A DNA stretch of 36,095 bases, from the NCBI GenBank assembly GCA_947626915.1, contig CANQUA010000105.1, positions 1 through 36,095 on the forward strand, in the 5' to 3' direction. A program made the position numbers and the translations under genes. Positions within the stretch are counted from its first letter, which is position 1. Each line of letters begins with the position of its first letter. This stretch comes from an uncultured Lachnospiraceae bacterium. GTDB taxonomy: Bacteria > Bacillota > Clostridia > Lachnospirales > Lachnospiraceae. The notes under the pieces were generated by a model. It ran no database searches and had not been told where the DNA came from. It saw only the letters and a list, made by a program, of their open reading frames with translations. Of the stretch, positions 5,101-35,903 are shown piece after piece.

Positions 5101-7770
5101 TCAGAACTCACTGTCATCATCATCCGTTATCCCATCTTCTGAATCTTCTTCGTCCGAATTTTCACCGTCCAAATCTTCATCAAACGATTCATCATCCGAG
5201 TCCGTTTCATCTTCATCCTCCGGATAACCGGCGAAATCATTATCATTTTCTTCGGCCCGCTCCAACAGCTCATCGATCAGAGTGCTTCCGTCCGCCGCGG
5301 TCACGTCCGTCTGCGCGTCTTTTTCATCGTCCTTCACCTTCGCGATACTGACGATACGGGTATCGGAGTCCTTCTCAATGTTCATCAGCTTCACGCCTGA
5401 CGCGTCCCGCCCGATGACGGAAATATCGTCGATGCTGATGCGGATCACAATTCCCTCATTGGTAATCATCATCAGGTCATGATCTTCCTGAACAATCTTC
5501 GCGCCTACCAGATCGCCGGTCTTATCCGTGATCTTGTAGCAGCGGACGCCTTTGCCGGCTCGATTCTGCGGGCTGAACCGGTCTATACTGGTTCTCTTGC
5601 CCATTCCTTTTTCCGATACGGTCAGAAGCGTTTCACCCTGGGTATCCATCTGTACGCCGATCACTTCGTCACCCGGATTCAGACGCATTCCCATGACGCC
5701 CATGGATACGCGGCCCATGACGCGCACGTCTGTCTCATGGAAGCGGATGCATTGCCCTTTCTTCGATATCATGAAAATATCTTTCGTATCGTCCGTGATC
5801 TTAACCTCGATCAGTTCGTCGTTTTCCTTCAGAACGATCGCCTGCAGACCGGTCTTGCGCACATTGGCGTACTCTCTGAGCGGCGTTTTCTTCACCATGC
5901 CGTTGCGGGTCGCCATGAACAGATACCTGTTTTCCGGATACCCCTTCATGGATACGATGGCCGTGATTTTCTCATCAGGCAGCATCTGGAGCAGGTTCAC
6001 GATGGCCATACCTCTGGCCGTGCGCCCGGCCTCCGGTATCGCGTAGGCTTTCAGGCGGTACACCCGGCCCATATTGGTAAAGAACATAATATCGTTATGG
6101 TTTCTGGTAAGGATCAGATCTTCTACGTAATCCTCTTCAATGGTCTGGATCCCTTTAATACCTTTTCCGCCCCGGTTCTGGCTGTGGAATGTGTCCTTGG
6201 GCATACGCTTGATATACCCAAAATGGGTCATCGTCACAACCGTCTCGTCATTTGGGATCAGATCTTCGGCGGTCATATCAAAATCATCATAACCGATGGA
6301 AGTTCTCCTGTCGTCGCCGTATTTATCGGAGATCAGCTGGATTTCTTTGCGGATCACGCCCAGCAGTTTTTTCTCGTCCGCCAGGATTTCTCTCAATTCT
6401 GCGATCTTTGCCTGAAGTTCCTTATATTCATCCTCCAGCTTCTCCCGCTCCAAACCGGTCAAAGCGCGCAGACGCATATCTACGATAGCCTGAGACTGCG
6501 CGTCGCTCAGTCCAAAACGATCCATCAGCTGCTGCTTCGCCAGCTGCACCGTCTGGGAGCCGCGGATGATCCGTATCACCTCGTCAATATGATCAAGAGC
6601 GATCAGCAATCCCTCCAAAATATGGGCGCGTTCCTCCGCTTTGTTCAGCTCATATTTGGTACGGCGGGTTACCACTTCTTCCTGATGCGCCAGATAATAC
6701 TTAAGCATTTCCAGAAGATTCAAAATTTTCGGCTGATTATCGACCAGTGCCAGCATGATCACGCCGAAAGAATCCTGAAGCTGCGTATGCTTCAAAAGCT
6801 GATTCAAAATCACGTTTGCATTCACATCGCGGCGCAGTTCGATCACAATGCGCATACCGGAACGGTCAGATTCATCCCGCAGATCGGTGATACCGTCCAC
6901 GCGCTTTTCTTTGACCAGTTCTGCAATCTTTTCGATCAGGCGCGCCTTATTGACCAGGAACGGAATTTCCGTCACAATGATCCGGCTTTTCCCATTAGCC
7001 ATGGACTCAATCTCGGATACGCAGCGGACGCGGATCTTGCCGCGGCCGGTGCGATAAGCTTCCTCGATGCCGGACCTTCCCAAAATCGTAGCGCCTGTGG
7101 GGAAATCCGGCCCTTTGACGATATCCATGACTTCCTCAATCGTGGTGTCCCGGTTTTCATTGATCCTATTATCAATGATCTTCACCACTGCGCCGACCAC
7201 CTCCCGCAGATTATGGGGAGGAATATTCGTAGCCATACCGACGGCGATTCCGGAGGTACCGTTGCATAAAAGGTTCGGATAGCGGGACGGCAGAACTACG
7301 GGTTCTTTCTCCGTATCGTCGAAGTTAGGCACAAAATCCACGGTATCCTTGTTGATATCCGCCAGCATCTCCATGGAAATCCTGCTGAGACGGGCCTCCG
7401 TATAACGCATGGCGGCCTGACCGTCGCCGTCCACAGAGCCGAAATTGCCGTGACCGTCCACCAACGGGTAACGGGTGGACCAATCCTGGGCCATATTCAC
7501 CAAAGCCCCGTAAATGGAACTGTCGCCATGAGGATGATATTTACCCATGGTATCACCGACGATACGCGCGCATTTTCTGTGAGGCTTGTCCGGCCCGTTA
7601 TTCAGCTCGATCATGGAATAGAGGACTCGCCTCTGAACCGGCTTCAGACCGTCTCTTACATCCGGCAGCGCCCTGGAAGCGATGACGCTCATGGCATAAT
7701 CGATGTAAGAGCTTTCCATGGTTTCTTTCAGATCTATATCTTGTATTTTATCAAATACATTCGGTTCCAT
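5101..7770 (-). CDS. gyrA: DNA gyrase subunit A
   Basis: An 889-residue breakage-reunion subunit of the type II topoisomerase that introduces negative supercoils. The catalytic tyrosine is Y123 in [10 protein letters not shown]. The quinolone region [10 protein letters not shown] spans 79-88; serine matches E. coli S83, but the residue equivalent to D87 is glycine. The C-terminal beta-pinwheel begins with a GyrA box (QNRGGKG). The last ~45 residues are an extremely acidic Asp/Glu/Ser tail. ATG follows GGAGGG. It is the last gene of the dnaA-to-gyrA cluster, 65 bases after gyrB, and ends before a shared terminator. Confidence 0.98.
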
Positions 7771-7835
7771 ATATGCCCTCCGATGTCGTATACTCTGCTT
7801 ATCGAATCAAAAGCTCCCGCATTTTCATGCACGAA

Positions 7836-9764
<1,929 letters not shown>

Positions 9765-15791: not shown

Positions 15792-17081
15792 TTGAATTTT
15801 TTAATTCTGACAAAAGTAGGCGGACCTTTTGGAGTGATCGTTCAGATGCTCGGATGGATCATGGAGATCCTGTTCGGATTTACCAATCTGTTTGGAGTAA
15901 TGAATATCGGTTTAAGCATTATTCTGTTTACGCTGGTGACAAAGCTGATCCTGTTTCCGTTATCTTTGAACCAGCAGAAATCCAGCAAGCTCCAGTCTGT
16001 CATTCAGCCTGAGATTCAGGCCATCCAGAAAAAATATAAGGGCAAGAATGACAACGATTCCATGATGAAGATGAACGTGGAGACCAGAGAGGTCTATGAG
16101 AAGTATGGCGCTTCCATGACCGGAGGGTGTCTGCCGCTTCTGCTCCAGTTTCCTATCATGATCGGCCTTTATCAGGTGATCTACAAAATTCCGGCGTATG
16201 TAGGACAGGTCAGGAATTATTTTGATTTAGTCATTGAAAAGCTGCCGGCGGATTTTGCTGCCAACGAGGTATTTCTGGAACTGGCCCAGAATCAGTATCT
16301 TGCCAATGCGGATTTCTCAAACATGGACAAGGTTGTAGACCTGCTTTATAAGCTGACCAACGCGCAGTGGAATCAGCTTGTTGCCGAATTTCCGAATATC
16401 AGTACTGCGGTTACCAGTTCAGGCGAGAACGTGATTGAAGCGATCAATCGGATGCAGCGTTTTTTGGGAATCAACGTTTCCTATACTCCAATGAACGTGA
16501 TTACAGGATTTTTCGGCGGGAATACTGAATTTACGATTATGGCGGTTGTATTTGCCGTCCTGATTCCCGTAGCTTCCGGTTTGTCCCAGTGGTACAGTTC
16601 TAAAATTATGATGGCGAATCAGCCGAAACAGCCGGATGACGCGCCTGGTTCCAGTATGCTGAAATCCATGAACGTGGCTATGCCGATCATGTCGCTGGTA
16701 TTTTGCTTTACGCTGCCTCTGGTAATCGGCATTTACTGGGTGGTCAGCAGTTTAGTTCAGATGGTTCAGCAGATGGTTATGAATTCCTATATGTCGAAGG
16801 TGGACATTGACGATCTGATCCGTCAGAGTGTGGAGAAGGCCAATAAGAAGCGCGCGAAGAAAGGACTTCCTCCCAACAAAGTGACGACGGCTGCCCAGGC
16901 TATGAAGCGTGTGCAGGAAATGGAAGCGAAAGAGGAAGCTCAGAAAAACGCGAAAGCCGCAAAAACGAAAAAAATGGTGGAGGAATCCACTGCCTATTAT
17001 AATCAAAACGCAAAACCGGGAAGCCTGGCATCGAAAGTCAATATGGTTAAGATGTATAATGAGAAGCATGAAAAGCACTAG
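15792..17081 (+). CDS. yidC: Membrane protein insertase YidC/Oxa1 family
   Basis: A 429-residue membrane insertase. A hydrophobic segment lies near 20-45, then the family block SIILFTLVTKLILFPLSLNQQ with the lysine-rich loop QPEIQAIQKKYKGK, GGCLPLLLQFPIMIGLYQVI, and later membrane segments around 245-265 and 295-330. The C-terminal ~90 residues are charged and coil-like, as in ribosome-binding tails. It starts with TTG; AGGAGG ends 7 bases upstream and no ATG fits. No lipobox is seen at the N-terminus, unlike Bacillus SpoIIIJ. It is followed 18 bases later by jag. Confidence 0.96.
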   Translation: MNFLILTKVGGPFGVIVQMLGWIMEILFGFTNLFGVMNIGLSIILFTLVTKLILFPLSLNQQKSSKLQSVIQPEIQAIQKKYKGKNDNDSMMKMNVETREVYEKYGASMTGGCLPLLLQFPIMIGLYQVIYKIPAYVGQVRNYFDLVIEKLPADFAANEVFLELAQNQYLANADFSNMDKVVDLLYKLTNAQWNQLVAEFPNISTAVTSSGENVIEAINRMQRFLGINVSYTPMNVITGFFGGNTEFTIMAVVFAVLIPVASGLSQWYSSKIMMANQPKQPDDAPGSSMLKSMNVAMPIMSLVFCFTLPLVIGIYWVVSSLVQMVQQMVMNSYMSKVDIDDLIRQSVEKANKKRAKKGLPPNKVTTAAQAMKRVQEMEAKEEAQKNAKAAKTKKMVEESTAYYNQNAKPGSLASKVNMVKMYNEKHEKH

Positions 17082-17099: not shown

Positions 17100-18422
17100 A
17101 TGGAAATGATTACGGTAACAGCCAAGACCCTGGATGAGGCCATCACAAAGGCTGCGATTGAGCTCGGTACTTCCAGCGACAATCTGGATTATACGATTAT
17201 AGAAGAAAAAGCAGGATTTTTAGGTTTTGGCAAGGCTGTGACGATCAAAGCAGGCAAGAAGCAGGAGGACGATCTGGACGCCCTGTATGCTTCCGTAGTG
17301 AGCGGAAAAGAAGAAAAGAAACCGGCCCCTGCTCCGAAACAGGAGAAAAAATCTGACAAAGAATCAAAAACGGACAGCAAAGAAAATTCTCAGGTAAAGG
17401 CAGTCAAAGAAACAAATGAAAATCAGACGTCAGTTAAAGAACCTCCGAAGGAAAAAGAACCTGTAAAAGAACCGCCTAAGAAAGAGCCTCAGAATCAGAA
17501 AAAAGAATCGAAGAAAGAGAAAAAGGATTCTTATAAAGAGTTTAAAACAGAGTTTAAGACGGAATCAAAGTATGAAGTAAAGAGTATGAAGCCCAGGGAG
17601 AATACGAAGAATGCTCCCAAGGACACTCCAAAAGATACGAAAGCTGCCGAAAAGCCGGCTCAGAAAGAGACTGTAAAAGAAAATCAGGTTTCAAAAGAAA
17701 AACAGAAGAACAATAATCGGGAAAATACGAAGAACAACCGCAAGGATTACGGCCGCGACCGAGGCAGGGATTCGTACCGCGCGACCGCGGAAGAGATCGA
17801 GGCCGAGAGAGAGGCTCAGAGAATTGCGGAGGAAAAACGAGCTGAAAAAGAAAGAGAACGTAAGGAAAATCGCAAACCGGTAGATGTGCCTGCGTGCAAA
17901 GCAGCAGCGGAGGATTTCTTAAAGCAGGTATTTGGCGCGATGGGTATGACTGTCGCCATGGAAACCGTATATGATGAGGAAGAGTTTGAACTGATCGTCA
18001 ATCTGGAAGGCGACGACATGGGCATTCTGATCGGTAAGAGAGGTCAGACTCTGGATTCTCTGCAGTATCTGGTCAGTCTGGTAGTGAATAAAAAGACGGA
18101 AGGATACCTGAGAGTGAAGCTGGATACGGAAAATTACCGCGCCAGAAGAAAAGAGACGCTGGAATCTCTCGCCAGGAATATCGCTTATAAGGTAAAAAGG
18201 ACCAGAAGAAGCGTTTCTCTGGAACCGATGAATCCTTATGAGAGAAGGATCATTCATTCTACGCTGCAGAACGACCGTTATGTAGTGACCAGAAGCGAGG
18301 GAGAAGATCCTTACAGGCATGTAGTTGTTTCTCTGAAAAGGGAAGTGAGAGAAAAGGACCGCCGCGGCGGATACAGCAAACAGAACAGCCAGAATGTTCA
18401 GACTGCTTCTGAAGAAGAATAA
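17100..18422 (+). CDS. jag: RNA-binding protein Jag/KhpB with long charged linker
   Basis: A 440-residue protein. Residues 1-56 are a Jag_N domain (MITVTAKTLDEAI, EEKAGFLGFGKA). A KH domain lies around 265-335 (GILIGKRGQTLDSLQYL) and an R3H domain around 340-405 (ending NPYERRIIH). Between them lie about 200 residues of Lys/Glu/Pro/Gln repeats of low complexity. B. subtilis Jag is near 208 residues, so the linker accounts for the doubled length. KhpB partners KhpA in binding many RNAs. ATG with AGGAGG upstream; an ATG two codons later is possible. Confidence 0.95.
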   Translation: MEMITVTAKTLDEAITKAAIELGTSSDNLDYTIIEEKAGFLGFGKAVTIKAGKKQEDDLDALYASVVSGKEEKKPAPAPKQEKKSDKESKTDSKENSQVKAVKETNENQTSVKEPPKEKEPVKEPPKKEPQNQKKESKKEKKDSYKEFKTEFKTESKYEVKSMKPRENTKNAPKDTPKDTKAAEKPAQKETVKENQVSKEKQKNNNRENTKNNRKDYGRDRGRDSYRATAEEIEAEREAQRIAEEKRAEKERERKENRKPVDVPACKAAAEDFLKQVFGAMGMTVAMETVYDEEEFELIVNLEGDDMGILIGKRGQTLDSLQYLVSLVVNKKTEGYLRVKLDTENYRARRKETLESLARNIAYKVKRTRRSVSLEPMNPYERRIIHSTLQNDRYVVTRSEGEDPYRHVVVSLKREVREKDRRGGYSKQNSQNVQTASEEE

Positions 18423-18432
18423 TTAGCGAGGG

Positions 18433-18527
18433 GCTGCTGCAAAACACATTCAACCACGATTTCGGATCAGGGTCGTAAGACATTCTGAAGCGTATTGTGC
18501 GATAATGTTATTTGCAGCAGCTTTTTT
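18433..18527 (+). terminator. Long rod-like hairpin with T run before mnmE
   Basis: GCTGCTGCAAA (18433-18443) pairs perfectly with TTTGCAGCAGC (18511-18521), then TTTTTT. Inside the 67-base loop, further nested helices can be traced: ACATT/AATGT, CACGAT/ATTGTG, TTCGGA/TCTGAA, and GTC/GAC capped by GTAA. It looks like an intrinsic terminator with an unusually long stem. The mnmE ribosome site AAGGA starts directly at the end of the T run. Confidence 0.7.
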
Positions 18528-18541
18528 AAGGATGGAATGAG

Positions 18542-19924
18542 ATGAAGACAGATACGATTGCTGCCATCGCTACAGGATTGACAGATTCCGGTATTGGAAT
18601 CATCCGAATAAGCGGTGAGGATTCTTTTCAGGTGATTCAGAAAATTTTCCGAAAGAAAAATGGTTCCGGTGTGAAACTGGATCAGTCTCATACGGTGCAG
18701 TATGGATTTATTTATGATGGAGAGCAGAAATTGGATGAAGTTCTGGTCTTGGTCATGAAGGGTCCCCACAGTTATACAGGAGAAGATACGGTAGAGATTG
18801 ATTGTCACGGCGGCGTTTTGATGATGCGGAGAATATTGGAAACAGTGATTCATTCCGGGGCAAGGACAGCGGATCCCGGAGAATTTACAAAAAGAGCATT
18901 TTTAAACGGCAGAATCGATCTGTCCCAGGCGGAAGCAGTCATTGATGTGATCAATGCGAAAAATGAATATGCGCTGAAAAGTTCTGTAGCGCAGCTGAGC
19001 GGAAGTATTTCCGGAAAAATTAAAAATCTGCGGGAAGGCATCCTGTACGAGATTGCTTATATTGAATCAGCTCTGGATGATCCGGAGCATATTTCTTTAG
19101 ATGGTTATGGAGATACATTAAAAAAGAAGATTACCGTTATGATTGAGAAAGTTCAGAATATGCTCGATTCCTCTGATTATGGGAGAATTGTGTCTGAGGG
19201 AATACGAACCGTGATCGTAGGAAAACCAAACGTAGGAAAATCTTCTTTAATGAATGTACTTTTAGGGGAGGAGAGAGCCATCGTCACGGAAATAGCCGGA
19301 ACAACCAGGGATACATTGGAAGAGCAGGTGCGTTTCGGCGAGATCAGTTTGAATGTGATCGATACGGCAGGGATCCGTGATACGGAAGATGCAGTGGAAA
19401 AAATCGGCGTTTCCAGGGCAAAGAACGCTTTGAATGATGCAGATTTGATCTTATATGTAGTAGACGCGTCGTCTCCTTTGGATGAAGACGACAGGAAGAT
19501 TATGGACATGATCTGCGGCCGCAGGGCTGTGGTTTTATTGAATAAATCTGATTTGGAGATAAAAACAGACATTGATGCTTTGAAAAAAGAGGAAAAACTG
19601 GCCGGAAAGAAGATCATTCAGATTTCGGCAAAGGAAGAAACAGGTTTTGAGGAGTTTAAAAATACTGTAAGAGAAATGTTTTACAACAGAGAGATTGATT
19701 TTAATGATGAAGTAATGATCACAAATCTCCGCCATAAAGAAGCGCTGAGCGACAGTCTGAAAAGCCTTCAGATGGTGATGAATAGCATAGAAAACGGACT
19801 TCCGGAAGATTTTTATTCGATTGATCTTATGGATGCTTATACAAGCCTTGGAAGTATCATTGGAGAGGCTGTGGAAGATGATGTGGTAAATGAGATTTTC
19901 CGCAGATTTTGCACCGGAAAGTAA
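18542..19924 (+). CDS. mnmE: tRNA modification GTPase MnmE
   Basis: A 460-residue GTPase which, with MnmG, forms 5-carboxymethylaminomethyl uridine at wobble position 34 of certain tRNAs. The N-terminal folate-binding domain (DTIAAIATGLTDSGIGIIRI), helical domain and inserted G domain are complete: GKPNVGKSS (G1), DTAG (G3) and NKSD (G4). The last residues are FCTGK, matching the catalytic C-terminal CxGK motif. It starts after AAGGATGG and lies 33 bases ahead of mnmG. Confidence 0.97.
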   Translation: MKTDTIAAIATGLTDSGIGIIRISGEDSFQVIQKIFRKKNGSGVKLDQSHTVQYGFIYDGEQKLDEVLVLVMKGPHSYTGEDTVEIDCHGGVLMMRRILETVIHSGARTADPGEFTKRAFLNGRIDLSQAEAVIDVINAKNEYALKSSVAQLSGSISGKIKNLREGILYEIAYIESALDDPEHISLDGYGDTLKKKITVMIEKVQNMLDSSDYGRIVSEGIRTVIVGKPNVGKSSLMNVLLGEERAIVTEIAGTTRDTLEEQVRFGEISLNVIDTAGIRDTEDAVEKIGVSRAKNALNDADLILYVVDASSPLDEDDRKIMDMICGRRAVVLLNKSDLEIKTDIDALKKEEKLAGKKIIQISAKEETGFEEFKNTVREMFYNREIDFNDEVMITNLRHKEALSDSLKSLQMVMNSIENGLPEDFYSIDLMDAYTSLGSIIGEAVEDDVVNEIFRRFCTGK

Positions 19925-30407: not shown

Positions 30408-30484
30408 GTCTGCGTAGCTCAGTTGGATAGAGCGACCGCCTCCTAAGCGGTAGGTCGGGTGTTCAAGTCACCTCGCGGACGCCA
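30408..30484 (+). tRNA. tRNA-Arg(CCU)
   Basis: A 77-nt tRNA: acceptor GTCTGCG pairs with CGCGGAC (one G-U pair), D arm AGCTCAGTTGGATAGAGC, anticodon arm ACCGC-CTCCTAA-GCGGT giving CCU (reads AGG), T arm GGTGTTCAAGTCACC, discriminator G and an encoded CCA. Confidence 0.96.
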
Positions 30485-32347: not shown

Positions 32348-33040
32348 TTAATTGATTTCAAGCTCGTTAGCCCATTCCATCACATCATCCGCAGAGGCTC
32401 CGGCAGAAAAACGGTGTCCGTCAAGCCATGCGGCTCCGCTTGCCGCAGACCGAAGCGCCGAATCGCTGCTGCCGAATCCGCTGCTGCCGGAGGTGCAGAA
32501 AGCGGCCAATGTCTTGCCGGAGGAATCATGGCTCTCAATAAATGTACTCATGATCCGCGGAGCTTCGCCCCACCAGATGGGGAATCCCAGCAGAATGGTA
32601 TCATAGGTGTTGTCAATCGTGCAGATGAAGCTCTCAAAATTGGGAGAGTTGTAGATGTCCGCAACACTGCACTCGATCGTCAGAGGAGACCGGCGAATGA
32701 TCGGCGCACCTGCGTCCCCGAGGTCATATTCAAACACAGCGGACTTATCCGCTTTCGTTCCGCTGACCGATCCCACATAGTCCGCTTCCGGCAGCATGGC
32801 CTCATCCACAAGGTTGATCGAGAGTTTTTTCGTCTCCTTGATACATCCGTTAATGAAGTGCGATGCGGCGAGGCTGACCAGCACCCGGTCATGGCCGATA
32901 ATGCCGATATGGGCGACTAACATCCATGTGGGTTTCTCTCCGTTCATGGCTCCGATCACCGTCGCCGGCGTGGGATAAAGCGCAAGCAGCGACCCAACAT
33001 TTTCTTCATAATTCAGAACCCTCCTGACTTGCAAATACAT
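32348..33040 (-). pseudogene. In-frame chimera: flavin reductase N-terminus joined to flavodoxin C-terminus
   Basis: A 230-residue frame. Residues ~10-146 match the flavin reductase-like FMN-binding family (LYPTPATVIGAM, LVAHIGIIGHDRV, LSINLVDEAMLP). From ~146 onward it is the C-terminal half of a flavodoxin (TILLGFPIWWGEAPRIMSTF, then FCTSGSSGFGSS). The reductase lacks its last ~35-40 residues and the flavodoxin lacks its N-terminal phosphate-binding loop. The start is unclear: ATG 33040 has no Shine-Dalgarno, while AGGAGGG lies 8 bases inside the frame just before a CTG at 33016. Most likely a deletion between two neighbouring flavoprotein genes; a working fusion is less likely. Confidence 0.75.
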
Positions 33041-33055: not shown

Positions 33056-33132
33056 ATGCTGCGTTTCGAAAAAACAGACTTTTCATTGAAAAATATTAAA
33101 GTTGCAATTTATGTGGCAAACAGGCCGGTTCA

Positions 33133-33141
33133 TGGTATAAT
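33133..33141 (+). promoter_or_regulatory. Extended -10 promoter of the TIR-kinase gene
   Basis: TGGTATAAT at 33133-33141: a perfect -10 with a TGn extension and only a poor -35. The start point would be about 95 bases before the GTG start codon. Confidence 0.7.
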
Positions 33142-33242
33142 AGACAGGACAGCCAACGGTCCTGAGGTCCGGCTCCGGCACTTCTGGCCTGGAGAAGAGC
33201 GGACAACGCGGCTTTTAACAGAAGAAGGAAGGTGAATGATAA

Positions 33243-34718
33243 GTGGATTATTCAAACCTGATTAAATCGGATGACGTATCGGGCGCGCCTTATATATTTG
33301 TGAGTTATTCCAGACGGGATATGCCGCTGGTTCAGAGTGTTCTTAAAATACTAAAAGGAAACCATTTCCGGTTTTGGTATGATGAAGGACTTAAATCCGG
33401 AATAGAATGGGCGGAAGAGATTGGAAATAGAATTGATCAGTGCGATCAGTTTTTAGTTTTAATATCATCCAATTCTATCAAGTCCAAATATGTGCGAAAA
33501 GAAATTGGAATGGCGACCGACAAAGATAAAAATATCCTGGTTCTGTATCTGGAAGAGACCAATCTTACCAGCGGCCTGAAGCTGCTGCTGGGGGATATAC
33601 AGGCAATTCACAGGGAATATTTCAGCAACGAGGACGATTTCGTGCGTGCGGTCTGCGAGGCCGCATCGAACAATACATTGTATCAAAATTCCAATATATT
33701 TGACGGTTTTGTCGATTTCGAAGGAACTTTTTCGGGAGCGGCACAAAGCAGGCTGCTGGCAAGTTATAAGCTTTTGTCGCAGATTGGAAGCGGCGGGATC
33801 GGTCAGGTCTTTTTGGCCGAACATAAAAGAACAGGGGCGATGGTTGCCGTAAAATGCGGTCTGATGGATAATTCTTACCGCGGGTCCGTTACAAAGGACT
33901 GCTTTGATGCGGAGAAAAAAATATTGACAAAAATGATGAAGGACATGTGTCCATATACTCCGATCATCCTGGATTGGTTTGAGGACGAAGCACAGGTAAT
34001 CATCGTTGAGACGCTGATTGATGGAGAATCATTGAAAGAGCAGGCCTTTTATTCGGAGGAAGAAATTGTTGCAATTTGCAGGAAAGTGCTGAATATCCTG
34101 CGATATCTGCATGGCAATCATATTATTTACAGAGATATAAAACCAAGCAATCTGATCCGGGACAAATATGGAGAAGTGCATTTGATCGATTTTAATACAG
34201 CGATGGTCGTTGGAGAAAACAGCGCCAAAAAGGAAACGCTGCTCGGCACTGTGGGATTCGCTCCGCCGGAGCAGTTCGAAGAGAATGTTTCCGCTGATTT
34301 TTCTTCGGATATCTATGCCCTGGGAAAGACCATGGTATATTTGCTTTGCCCGGAACATTTTGATAAAAATTCCGGAATCCCAATCCGATATTACAGAAAA
34401 GATATTTCCGCAGAGCTGGAGGCCGTTTTGGAGAAAATGACAGCGCCTTCGCAGAGCGACAGATACCGAAGCGCGGAGGAACTGCTGCAAAAACTCGATC
34501 ATTATAAGGAGACCGGTTTAATAAACAAAATCCGGCTTCTCAGGAAATCGCGGAAGGATATAAAGGAATTTGAAACTAAAAACAGGGAGAGTATAGAAGC
34601 GCGTAAAAACGTGTTGTATGAACTGGCGGAGGCTTCACAGTCCCATGTAGGCGAGGACTTCTATAATACAGTGATTCTTTCGGATCCCGATGTAAAGGTA
34701 TCTGCCGAAAAGGAATAG
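33243..34718 (+). CDS. TIR domain-Ser/Thr protein kinase fusion
   Basis: A 491-residue protein, GTG start with GGAAGG 10 bases upstream. Residues ~15-140 are a TIR domain (IFVSYSRRD at 18-26, then FWYDEGLKSGIEWAEEI at 44-60, then LVLISSNS at 71-78); E55, E58 or E59 could be the catalytic glutamate of NAD-cleaving TIRs. Residues ~175-425 are a eukaryotic-type kinase: glycine loop IGSGGIGQV (181-189), K204, E224, YRDIKPSN with D298 and N303, DFN at 316-318 in place of DFG, and an APPE segment at 340-343. A helical tail follows. No membrane helix. Defence or signalling is inferred; partners are not in view. Confidence 0.9.
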   Translation: MDYSNLIKSDDVSGAPYIFVSYSRRDMPLVQSVLKILKGNHFRFWYDEGLKSGIEWAEEIGNRIDQCDQFLVLISSNSIKSKYVRKEIGMATDKDKNILVLYLEETNLTSGLKLLLGDIQAIHREYFSNEDDFVRAVCEAASNNTLYQNSNIFDGFVDFEGTFSGAAQSRLLASYKLLSQIGSGGIGQVFLAEHKRTGAMVAVKCGLMDNSYRGSVTKDCFDAEKKILTKMMKDMCPYTPIILDWFEDEAQVIIVETLIDGESLKEQAFYSEEEIVAICRKVLNILRYLHGNHIIYRDIKPSNLIRDKYGEVHLIDFNTAMVVGENSAKKETLLGTVGFAPPEQFEENVSADFSSDIYALGKTMVYLLCPEHFDKNSGIPIRYYRKDISAELEAVLEKMTAPSQSDRYRSAEELLQKLDHYKETGLINKIRLLRKSRKDIKEFETKNRESIEARKNVLYELAEASQSHVGEDFYNTVILSDPDVKVSAEKE

Positions 34719-34832
34719 ACTGCAATTGCTGCGGGAAAATAGATGTAAATTCTCAAAGTAAACTCTGTGGTGGGGCCTGTTTTGCAAATTTTCTAAAAAT
34801 AAAAGAAGAATAAAAAAAGACGTTCGTAACGC

Positions 34833-34862
34833 TTGACAGGCGGCAGAGGGTTGTGGTATATT
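34833..34862 (+). promoter_or_regulatory. Promoter upstream of the hydrolase gene
   Basis: TTGACA at 34833-34838 and TATATT at 34857-34862, 18-base spacer. The start point would fall in the operator at 34865-34880. Confidence 0.7.
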
Positions 34863-34864
34863 AT

Positions 34865-34880
34865 GTTAGCGGTTGCTAAC
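34865..34880. promoter_or_regulatory. Operator copy 1, GTTAGC-N4-GCTAAC
   Basis: A perfect 6-base inverted repeat with spacer GGTT, overlapping the expected transcription start. The size and symmetry are typical of TetR- or MarR-type repressor sites. Confidence 0.7.
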
Positions 34881-34892
34881 AGACGACCTTCT

Positions 34893-34917
34893 GCCGCTTT
34901 GTCAAGCGGCTTTAATT
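34893..34917 (+). terminator. Leader terminator/attenuator hairpin
   Basis: GCCGCTT (34893-34899) and AAGCGGC (34904-34910), a perfect 7-pair stem with loop TGTC, then TTTAATT. It lies between the promoter and the coding region, so full-length transcription must pass it. Confidence 0.65.
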
Positions 34918-34927
34918 AGGCCCCACA

Positions 34928-34943
34928 GTTAGCAAAAGCTAAC
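34928..34943. promoter_or_regulatory. Operator copy 2, GTTAGC-N4-GCTAAC
   Basis: Same half-sites as copy 1 with spacer AAAA, centred 63 bases downstream (about six helix turns), 45 bases before the hydrolase start. Confidence 0.7.
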
Positions 34944-34988
34944 AATCGGCTGGCAGGTCTTCTTTATAACAGAAAGAGGGATGGGATC

Positions 34989-35903
34989 ATGAAAACGAAC
35001 GCGGAACGGGCGCGGGAACGGCTGACTTTAGCGCCGGTCGCTGAATTTACATTGGAGAAGGACGGTTTTATCGGTGCGTTATATCGGCCGGAGCGGGATG
35101 AATATCCGGGAAAAGCGGTCATCATGTTCGGGGGCAGCGACGGGATATACAATCTTACGAAGCTGGCTGCGGAGCAGTATGTGAAGCGCGGGATGACAAT
35201 CCTTACGCTGGCGTATTGGAACGAGCCCGGTCTGCCGGACGGCTTTGAAAAGGTCCCGGTAGAGCCGGTGGAAAAAGCCGCGTTGTGGCTGCGCGGGCAA
35301 GGCTTTGAAAAGGTCGGTCTGTGGGGAATCTCCATGGGCGCGGAGCTGGCGCTGCTGGCCGGGAGCCTGATGCCGGAACTGATCTCCTGCGTGACGGCGG
35401 TGTGCCCGACGAATATCTGCGGGCAGGGCTTTGTGAAGAAAAAGAGCATACAGACGCTGGAGTGTTCTGCCTTCAGCTGGCGGGGCAAGGAATTGCCCTG
35501 GGCAAGGCTGAAGCTCTCCAAGGCCGCCATTTTCCGAGACAGCCTGCGGGAGAAAGGGATATGCCTGCGCTCTTGCTATGAGGACGCGGTGCTTCATGCC
35601 CCGGAGGAGGCGCAGATCAAGGTGGAGAACATCGGCGGCCCCGTGCTGCTGCTCTATCCAGAGCATGACGCCATGTGGCCTTCCGAGCTGTCGGCGGAGA
35701 AGATCCGGTCGCGGCTGAAAGAGAAGAACTTCGCCCACCCCTTCAAGTGCGTCAGCTACAAATACGCCAGTCATATGCTGATCCCGGTGACGTCCCGGTC
35801 CACGGTGATGTTTAAGGTGGAACGAAAATACCCGGAACAGTGCCGGGAAAGTGACATGGACGCTTTTGAAAAGACGCTGGCGTTCTGGAAAGAGGTCTGG
35901 TGA
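34989..35903 (+). CDS. Alpha/beta hydrolase, BAAT/acyl-CoA thioester hydrolase C-terminal type
   Basis: A 304-residue protein. The nucleophile elbow GISMG places Ser115. D227 in PEHDAMWP and H262 in ASHML complete a probable triad. The oxyanion stretch MFGGSDGI and overall order resemble the BAAT C-terminal family (acyl-CoA thioesterases and bile acid-CoA:amino acid acyltransferases). In that family the nucleophile can be Cys or Ser; here it is Ser, which favours hydrolysis. The start follows AAAGAGGG. GC content is clearly higher than in the TIR-kinase, suggesting separate origin. It precedes an ABC ATPase by 34 bases, probably one operon. Confidence 0.85.
   Translation: MKTNAERARERLTLAPVAEFTLEKDGFIGALYRPERDEYPGKAVIMFGGSDGIYNLTKLAAEQYVKRGMTILTLAYWNEPGLPDGFEKVPVEPVEKAALWLRGQGFEKVGLWGISMGAELALLAGSLMPELISCVTAVCPTNICGQGFVKKKSIQTLECSAFSWRGKELPWARLKLSKAAIFRDSLREKGICLRSCYEDAVLHAPEEAQIKVENIGGPVLLLYPEHDAMWPSELSAEKIRSRLKEKNFAHPFKCVSYKYASHMLIPVTSRSTVMFKVERKYPEQCRESDMDAFEKTLAFWKEVW

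Follow-up and report, generated by a model that had tools for sequence, protein, structure and literature searches.

The gene at positions 33243..34718 (+ strand) of the window, a stretch of 36,095 nucleotides that makes up a whole contig (C105) of the genome of an uncultured Lachnospiraceae bacterium (G000), encodes a protein of 491 amino acids in which a TIR domain is fused to a Hanks-type Ser/Thr protein kinase, and represents a real, discrete and rare architecture. The interpretation favoured here, which in our estimate stands an even chance of being right, is that of a rare, horizontally moving single-gene device in which a TIR NADase effector would be gated by the fused kinase, probably against phages; the activities, the direction of gating, the trigger and the anti-phage role are what we infer.

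The reading frame begins with a GTG codon, preceded by a purine-rich ribosome-binding site (agaagaaggaagg, 33220-33232). The TIR domain, for which the earlier note had suggested a profile search, was detected by Pfam TIR_2 at residues 18-123 (33294..33611, + strand; E 6.8e-18, 65.8 bits against a cut-off of 28), and the kinase domain by Pkinase at residues 175-419 (33765..34499, + strand; E 1.8e-34, 119.8 bits against a cut-off of 31.7). Neither the linker of about 50 residues between them nor the charged C-terminal tail (residues 420-491, 34500..34715, + strand; helical according to the earlier note only) has a clear family match in Pfam, and none of the NCBIfam models reaches its own cut-off with this protein. 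There is no STAND, NACHT or AP-ATPase family after the TIR domain among Pfam matches at E 0.1, and the kinase starts at residue 175, so that a TIR-STAND or NLR-like receptor was rejected. The profiles thus bear out the direct junction of TIR and kinase, with no NTPase module in between, that had been read from the sequence.

This two-domain frame is not the product of chance, because two relatives, each in another genome, retain it. The closest full-length relative (L028:7980-9443), from an Oscillospiraceae metagenome-assembled genome, is 53% identical to the window protein, and a more distant one in genome G409 (L056:8866-10248) is 32% identical. An extended -10 promoter of its own had also been ascribed to the gene. 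A promoter-like site, GTGGCA-17-TATAAT with TG extension, does lie some 100 bp ahead of the start codon (33113..33141, + strand), but it is weak evidence because the promoter scan returned 7 such sites against 3.8 +/- 2.2 in shuffled sequences.

The kinase keeps K204, E224, D298, N303 and D316 at precisely the positions given earlier. Together with K300, these residues are invariant in all 27 aligned kinases (the three TIR–kinases and 24 others), and by this six-residue criterion the window kinase would be classed with the active Hanks-type Ser/Thr kinases. Among 61 distinct kinase-like sequences from the fetched loci, 58 could be typed for their motifs with a pattern in which the catalytic Asp must follow R, K or G, and 3 could not; the typed set leaves aside the window protein and L028 and includes the G409 TIR–kinase. 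The catalytic loop reads YRD in 47 of the 58, YKD in 4, HRD in 3, YGD in 2, and HKD and FRD in one each, whereas at the DFG position 54 have DFG, 2 DFD, one DYG and one DFS. DFN is found in the window protein and L028, which thereby lack the DFG glycine of active Hanks-type Ser/Thr kinases, while G409 has HKD and DFG. Of the two oddities pointed out earlier, DFN is indeed unusual, with no occurrence in the typed set, and spares the metal ligand D316; YRD is the common form in related kinases, which rules it out as a sign of degeneration.

The putative catalytic glutamate of the TIR domain, left open by the earlier note, can be assigned from alignment to solved TIR NADases as E87, in SKYVRKEIGMA (codon 33501..33503, + strand). 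This residue is invariant in all four aligned TIRs, and the putative NADase glutamate is present in all three full-length TIR–kinases. When the profile of the four TIRs was run against PDB sequences, the best match was Cat1, a CRISPR-associated TIR (9mud, E 3.2e-9), and 7uxr, the Toll-like receptor chain 7ylf and the AbTIR chains 7uwg and 8g83 were also found, with SARM1 chains further down the list. In the alignments the E87 column corresponds to the Glu of SDWCWDELE in Cat1 and of KKDWTNYELD in AbTIR, which we take to be the catalytic Glu of AbTIR/SARM1-type enzymes. Since a Glu occupies this column in the Toll-like receptor chain 7ylf too, E87 is compatible with NADase activity and no proof of it: such a residue would be necessary, not sufficient, for membership in the TIR NADases. 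The ThsB_TIR profile also matches the window TIR (32.5 bits, cut-off 21.2). Despite this match a Thoeris system was rejected, as no ThsA-like partner was found by Pfam among the six annotated neighbours on a contig that ends 1.4 kb past the gene.

Comparison of the three proteins provides information on constraint and descent. Between the window and L028 proteins, 92 of 131 residues are identical in the TIR domain, 130 of 249 in the kinase and 30 of 99 in the remainder, and the differences at the three codon positions (0.355, 0.294 and 0.674 over 479 codons) indicate that the protein is constrained. Between window and G409, TIR (47/131) and kinase (83/246) have diverged equally, and the better conservation of the TIR domain thus rests on one pair, window–L028. 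In a tree of 59 kinase domains the three TIR–kinases form one clade (support 100/99), again with 100/99 after eight long-branch rows had been dropped (51 left); this is a midpoint-rooted tree in which the G409 branch is long (2.29) and long branches meet, and its other members had been selected for resembling the window protein. Rows sharing the first 60 residues, the L030 duplicate of the G409 gene and L006, whose match was too short, were excluded. With the TIR–kinases as one clade, a single origin of the fusion is compatible with the tree and is the simplest reading.

A mechanism in keeping with these features can be outlined for the favoured interpretation. The N-terminal TIR domain would be the NAD-consuming effector (an NADase or a cyclic-ADPR-forming enzyme), active only upon self-assembly, and the fused Ser/Thr kinase with its tail would be the sensing and gating half. 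At rest, the TIR domains would be held apart by the kinase, by way of either its phosphorylation state or its conformation; an infection-linked trigger would then bind the kinase or tail, or alter phosphorylation, with the consequence that the TIR domains come together, cleave NAD and halt the growth of the infected cell. Kinase control of the TIR domain is plausible, and phosphorylation might either restrain it or release it. It is tempting to go further and to see in these proteins a distinct bacterial immune family with the Ser/Thr kinase as the built-in switch of a TIR NADase, in which phosphorylation of the TIR domain or tail, instead of an NTPase or second-messenger sensor, would hold or release assembly, as a one-polypeptide counterpart of the animal TIR-kinase relay; this extension is possible, and we regard it as doubtful.

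The roles of the two domains could also be reversed, with the kinase as output and the TIR domain as assembly or receiver scaffold (compare TLR-MyD88-IRAK and the choanoflagellate “Kinase TIRs”), so that TIR clustering would lead to trans-phosphorylation by the kinase and to a signal. We consider this unlikely. All catalytic residues of the kinase are kept, as such a role would have it, and the Glu in the E87 column of 7ylf belongs to the Toll-like receptors, a receptor family in which the TIR domain serves as a scaffold. The authors of the choanoflagellate study also propose that their pair may bypass the recruitment of a separate kinase (PMC6040629). However, none of the three members has lost the putative NADase glutamate, the best PDB profile matches include TIRs of enzymes or defence systems (Cat1, AbTIR), and in the closest pair conservation is highest in the TIR domain, all of which speaks for the TIR domain as the effector.

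The full-length architecture is rare. All of 99 genomes (own genome included) match the query, mostly through the kinase part among the matches listed, and among these no match outside the own genome covers both domains. Larger sets, which overlap and count the own genome several times, were searched with at most 4 (class) or at most 3 (phylum, family) first-look candidates scored per genome. At class level (391 genomes, E 1e-30) 24 genomes matched at 27 places, and both domains were covered at two of these, in the own genome and in G409; at phylum level (398 genomes, 1e-40) only the own genome matched; and within the family (397 genomes, 1e-40) 25 genomes matched at 25 places, with both domains in the own genome only. 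Three of 200 genomes of the G409 family matched at 1e-45, with both domains in G409 only, and there was no match among the 4 genomes of the G235 family, a search lacking a positive control. L028 was the only relative found among genome contigs by exact peptide patterns (8 stretches fitted, 1 confirmed), which reach close relatives only, and the same approach gave no full-length relative among viral contigs. None of the 459 plasmid records and 35 phage records that match the query covers 80% of it. The fusion may nevertheless stand uncommented in annotated protein databases, which lie outside the present search.

The first part of the window, as far as about 27.5 kb, carries replication-origin genes. 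Among 20 ORFs tested in it are gyrA, gyrB, a RecF-like gene, dnaN and dnaA, which represent the origin, and then mnmE, gidA, gidB and the ParA and ParB genes. Further on the order is a Glu-type dehydrogenase, DUF3881, tRNA-Arg, a small gene, an AraC-type regulator, a decayed flavoprotein locus, the TIR–kinase and a hydrolase. The tRNA-Arg (CCT; 30408..30484, + strand), which also follows DUF3881 in sibling genomes, is the left anchor of a variable slot, and the alpha/beta hydrolase gene (34989..35903, + strand), identified by Pfam and by sibling homology, is its right anchor. DNA homology to six sibling loci of the genus starts at 34909-34989, just before the hydrolase, while nothing in the fetched sibling DNA matches 33056-34908 at the nucleotide level, a stretch with only short matches in L028 and in a TIR gene on contig C59 of the own genome. 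This C59 gene (L029:18034-19999), another TIR gene, appears by eye to continue with a repeat-rich stretch and an apparent membrane segment, and it lies just downstream of a PemK/MazF-like gene, likewise named by eye.

The flavoprotein locus (32348..33040, - strand) had been described as decayed, and this was confirmed with Pfam and sibling DNA: its flavin-reductase and flavodoxin parts share one open frame and their matching stretches are 20 bp apart, compared to 705 bp in sibling L096, where two genes are seen by eye. Ahead of the hydrolase gene (window 34833-34942) there is a strong promoter-like site, TTGACA-18-TATATT (11/12), followed by two GTTAGC...GCTAAC palindromes, noticed by eye, which look like a repressor operator.

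What occupies the slot differs between siblings. In G015 the only listed ORF of at least 70 aa in the slot codes for an ATPase (L098:1399-2685; AAA_14 and DUF4143) that matches PADLOC PDC-S01 (E 3.6e-68), a candidate-defence class only. A gene whose product is identical to it over the first 60 residues adjoins the hydrolase in G002. Genes of the Phage_integrase family directly follow the same tRNA-Arg in G006 and G025. In G023, two partial copies of the 3' part of the tRNA-Arg with downstream DNA are present beyond the hydrolase (L083:14509-14614 and 16260-16350) and look as if left by site-specific integration. The interval from tRNA-Arg to the hydrolase forms a variable tRNA hot spot, and for the “accessory end” of the earlier note a tRNA-Arg hot spot, at a distance of about 20 kb from dnaA, is the more fitting description. 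The GC content of the TIR–kinase gene (0.436) lies inside the range of its neighbours (hydrolase 0.585, AraC 0.547, DUF3881 0.419), and composition alone is therefore no mark of foreign origin. Repeats were also searched as possible att sites, and the short scattered pairs obtained did not bracket the gene convincingly. No PADLOC match was obtained for the two window neighbours tested, which did not include the flavoprotein and the hydrolase.

The other two copies occur in different surroundings. In L028 the TIR–kinase is preceded by a second TIR gene of 490 codons (6480-7952, same strand). The gap measures 27 bp to the earliest start codon that the TIR–kinase could use and 42 bp to the aligned ATG, and this proximity on the same strand makes an operon likely. 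The product of the second TIR gene has a C-terminal TIR domain (TIR_2 at 365-470, E 4.6e-16) after an uncharacterised N-terminal region of about 360 residues. The window genome holds nothing that matches it (E 0.001), and a homologue was found in only one of the 391 class genomes at E 1e-12, namely G235, where by eye no kinase adjoins it, as judged from ORF starts; an obligate companion was accordingly rejected. By eye, the G235 homologue starts with a zinc-ribbon-like motif. In G409, the TIR–kinase lies between two TraG/VirD4-type genes (L056:2089-3714 and 17646-18962), together with a Clp-protease gene and a gene for a protein of 1412 aa (L056:11018-15253, - strand) consisting of a Ser/Thr kinase and a C-terminal Card1/CARF-PDDEXK-like nuclease. 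The latter match (Card1_endonuc, E 7.8e-6) is just below the curated Pfam cut-off, with PADLOC CARF4 at E 7.8e-13, and the protein is possibly another kinase-gated effector. Two more TIR genes are found about 10 to 16 kb downstream of the G409 TIR–kinase (L110).

These data bear on the remaining alternatives. That the gene encodes an ordinary housekeeping or stress signalling kinase which happens to carry a TIR domain, with no role in conflict, appears improbable. Related kinases are common, given the matches in every one of the 99 genomes, and the survey of neighbours proposed earlier revealed none common to the window, L028 and G409 loci. The refuting conditions named earlier did not arise: the TIR domain was detected, its glutamate is present, and no housekeeping partner common to these loci was seen. 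The full-length form, present in 1/397 family, 2/391 class and 1/398 phylum genomes (own genome included each time), is patchy and located in mobile or variable slots, which is not the pattern of a core regulator. A conflict module that would serve a mobile element, through exclusion of rivals or addiction, and not the host against phages, is likewise improbable: the G409 copy lies between conjugation coupling-protein genes, and in siblings integrases make use of the tRNA-Arg slot that holds the window copy, but no integrase or transfer gene was found beside the window copy, which has an AraC-type regulator, a flavoprotein remnant and a hydrolase as neighbours, and the L028 pair is located, by eye, between a peptidase-type gene and glycine-cleavage-type genes. 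A secreted, host-directed effector is hardly credible, for even if some bacterial TIRs interfere with animal immunity (PMC9153377), the TIR domain starts about 17 residues after the start codon, leaving little room for a secretion signal, and a function inside the cell would suit both the fusion to a kinase and the variable slot.

As to the gated effector proposed here, a defence role, put forward earlier, is favoured by the context of the three members: the second TIR in L028, the conjugation and kinase–Card1-like genes in G409, and the slot that holds a PDC-S01 ATPase in two siblings. This context is not functional proof. If the interpretation is correct, phosphorylation, through a kinase that is part of the same polypeptide, would be a further switch for NAD-depleting immunity, and a simple single-gene system would offer a counterpart, in bacteria, of the TIR–kinase signalling of eukaryotes.

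The known partners of TIR domains in bacterial defence are of the NTPase, SAVED, SLOG/SIR2, Argonaute or portal-sensing type. No published description of a bacterial TIR–kinase fusion was found in the literature searched, which was mainly open-licence. In the available text of two surveys of prokaryotic conflict systems, TIR and S/T kinase are both listed as effector domains, and figure in ternary and STAND systems as alternatives around NTPase cores or adaptor domains, whereas the window gene pairs them directly; these portions describe no direct TIR–kinase pair (PMC7159879, PMC8195603), nor do those of four further papers (PMC10907252, PMC9503650, PMC7517822, PMC9153377). Most kinase domains of the systems surveyed in PMC7159879 have disrupted catalytic residues, unlike the window kinase with its intact ones. 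Among eukaryotes, one plant TIR group is tied to protein kinases in the discussion of PMC7075850, which in another place describes this group as followed by a P-loop NTPase. The choanoflagellate study names “Kinase TIRs” and “Kinase TLRs”, the former with TIR and kinase in one protein and no transmembrane domain (PMC6040629). The window protein also joins both domains; the “Kinase TIRs” are eukaryotic and described as choanoflagellate-specific, the likeness is one of architecture only, and our guess would be convergence.

Single-gene kinase defences, represented by the PADLOC PD-T4-6 and Stk2 models, have a Hanks-type kinase in a defence setting, as would the window kinase; to our knowledge they lack a TIR domain. 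The window protein scores 161 bits with the PD-T4-6 kinase models, and this label was dropped as unspecific, because all three chosen non-TIR control kinases match as well (best scores 195, 191 and 479 bits), the last being the L004 kinase of the window genome itself. There is a likeness in logic to SpbK, in which a TIR effector is also fused to a non-NTPase second domain within a single gene, carried by the mobile element ICEBs1. SpbK is a single-protein TIR NADase, activated through its N-terminal domain by a phage protein, the portal protein YonE, which clusters it, and it acts by TIR clustering (PMC12847820). The sensing domain of SpbK is N-terminal and there is no kinase, whereas the kinase of the window protein is C-terminal to its TIR domain. 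The TIR–kinase varies on TIR effectors or kinases that are already known and does not form a category of its own.
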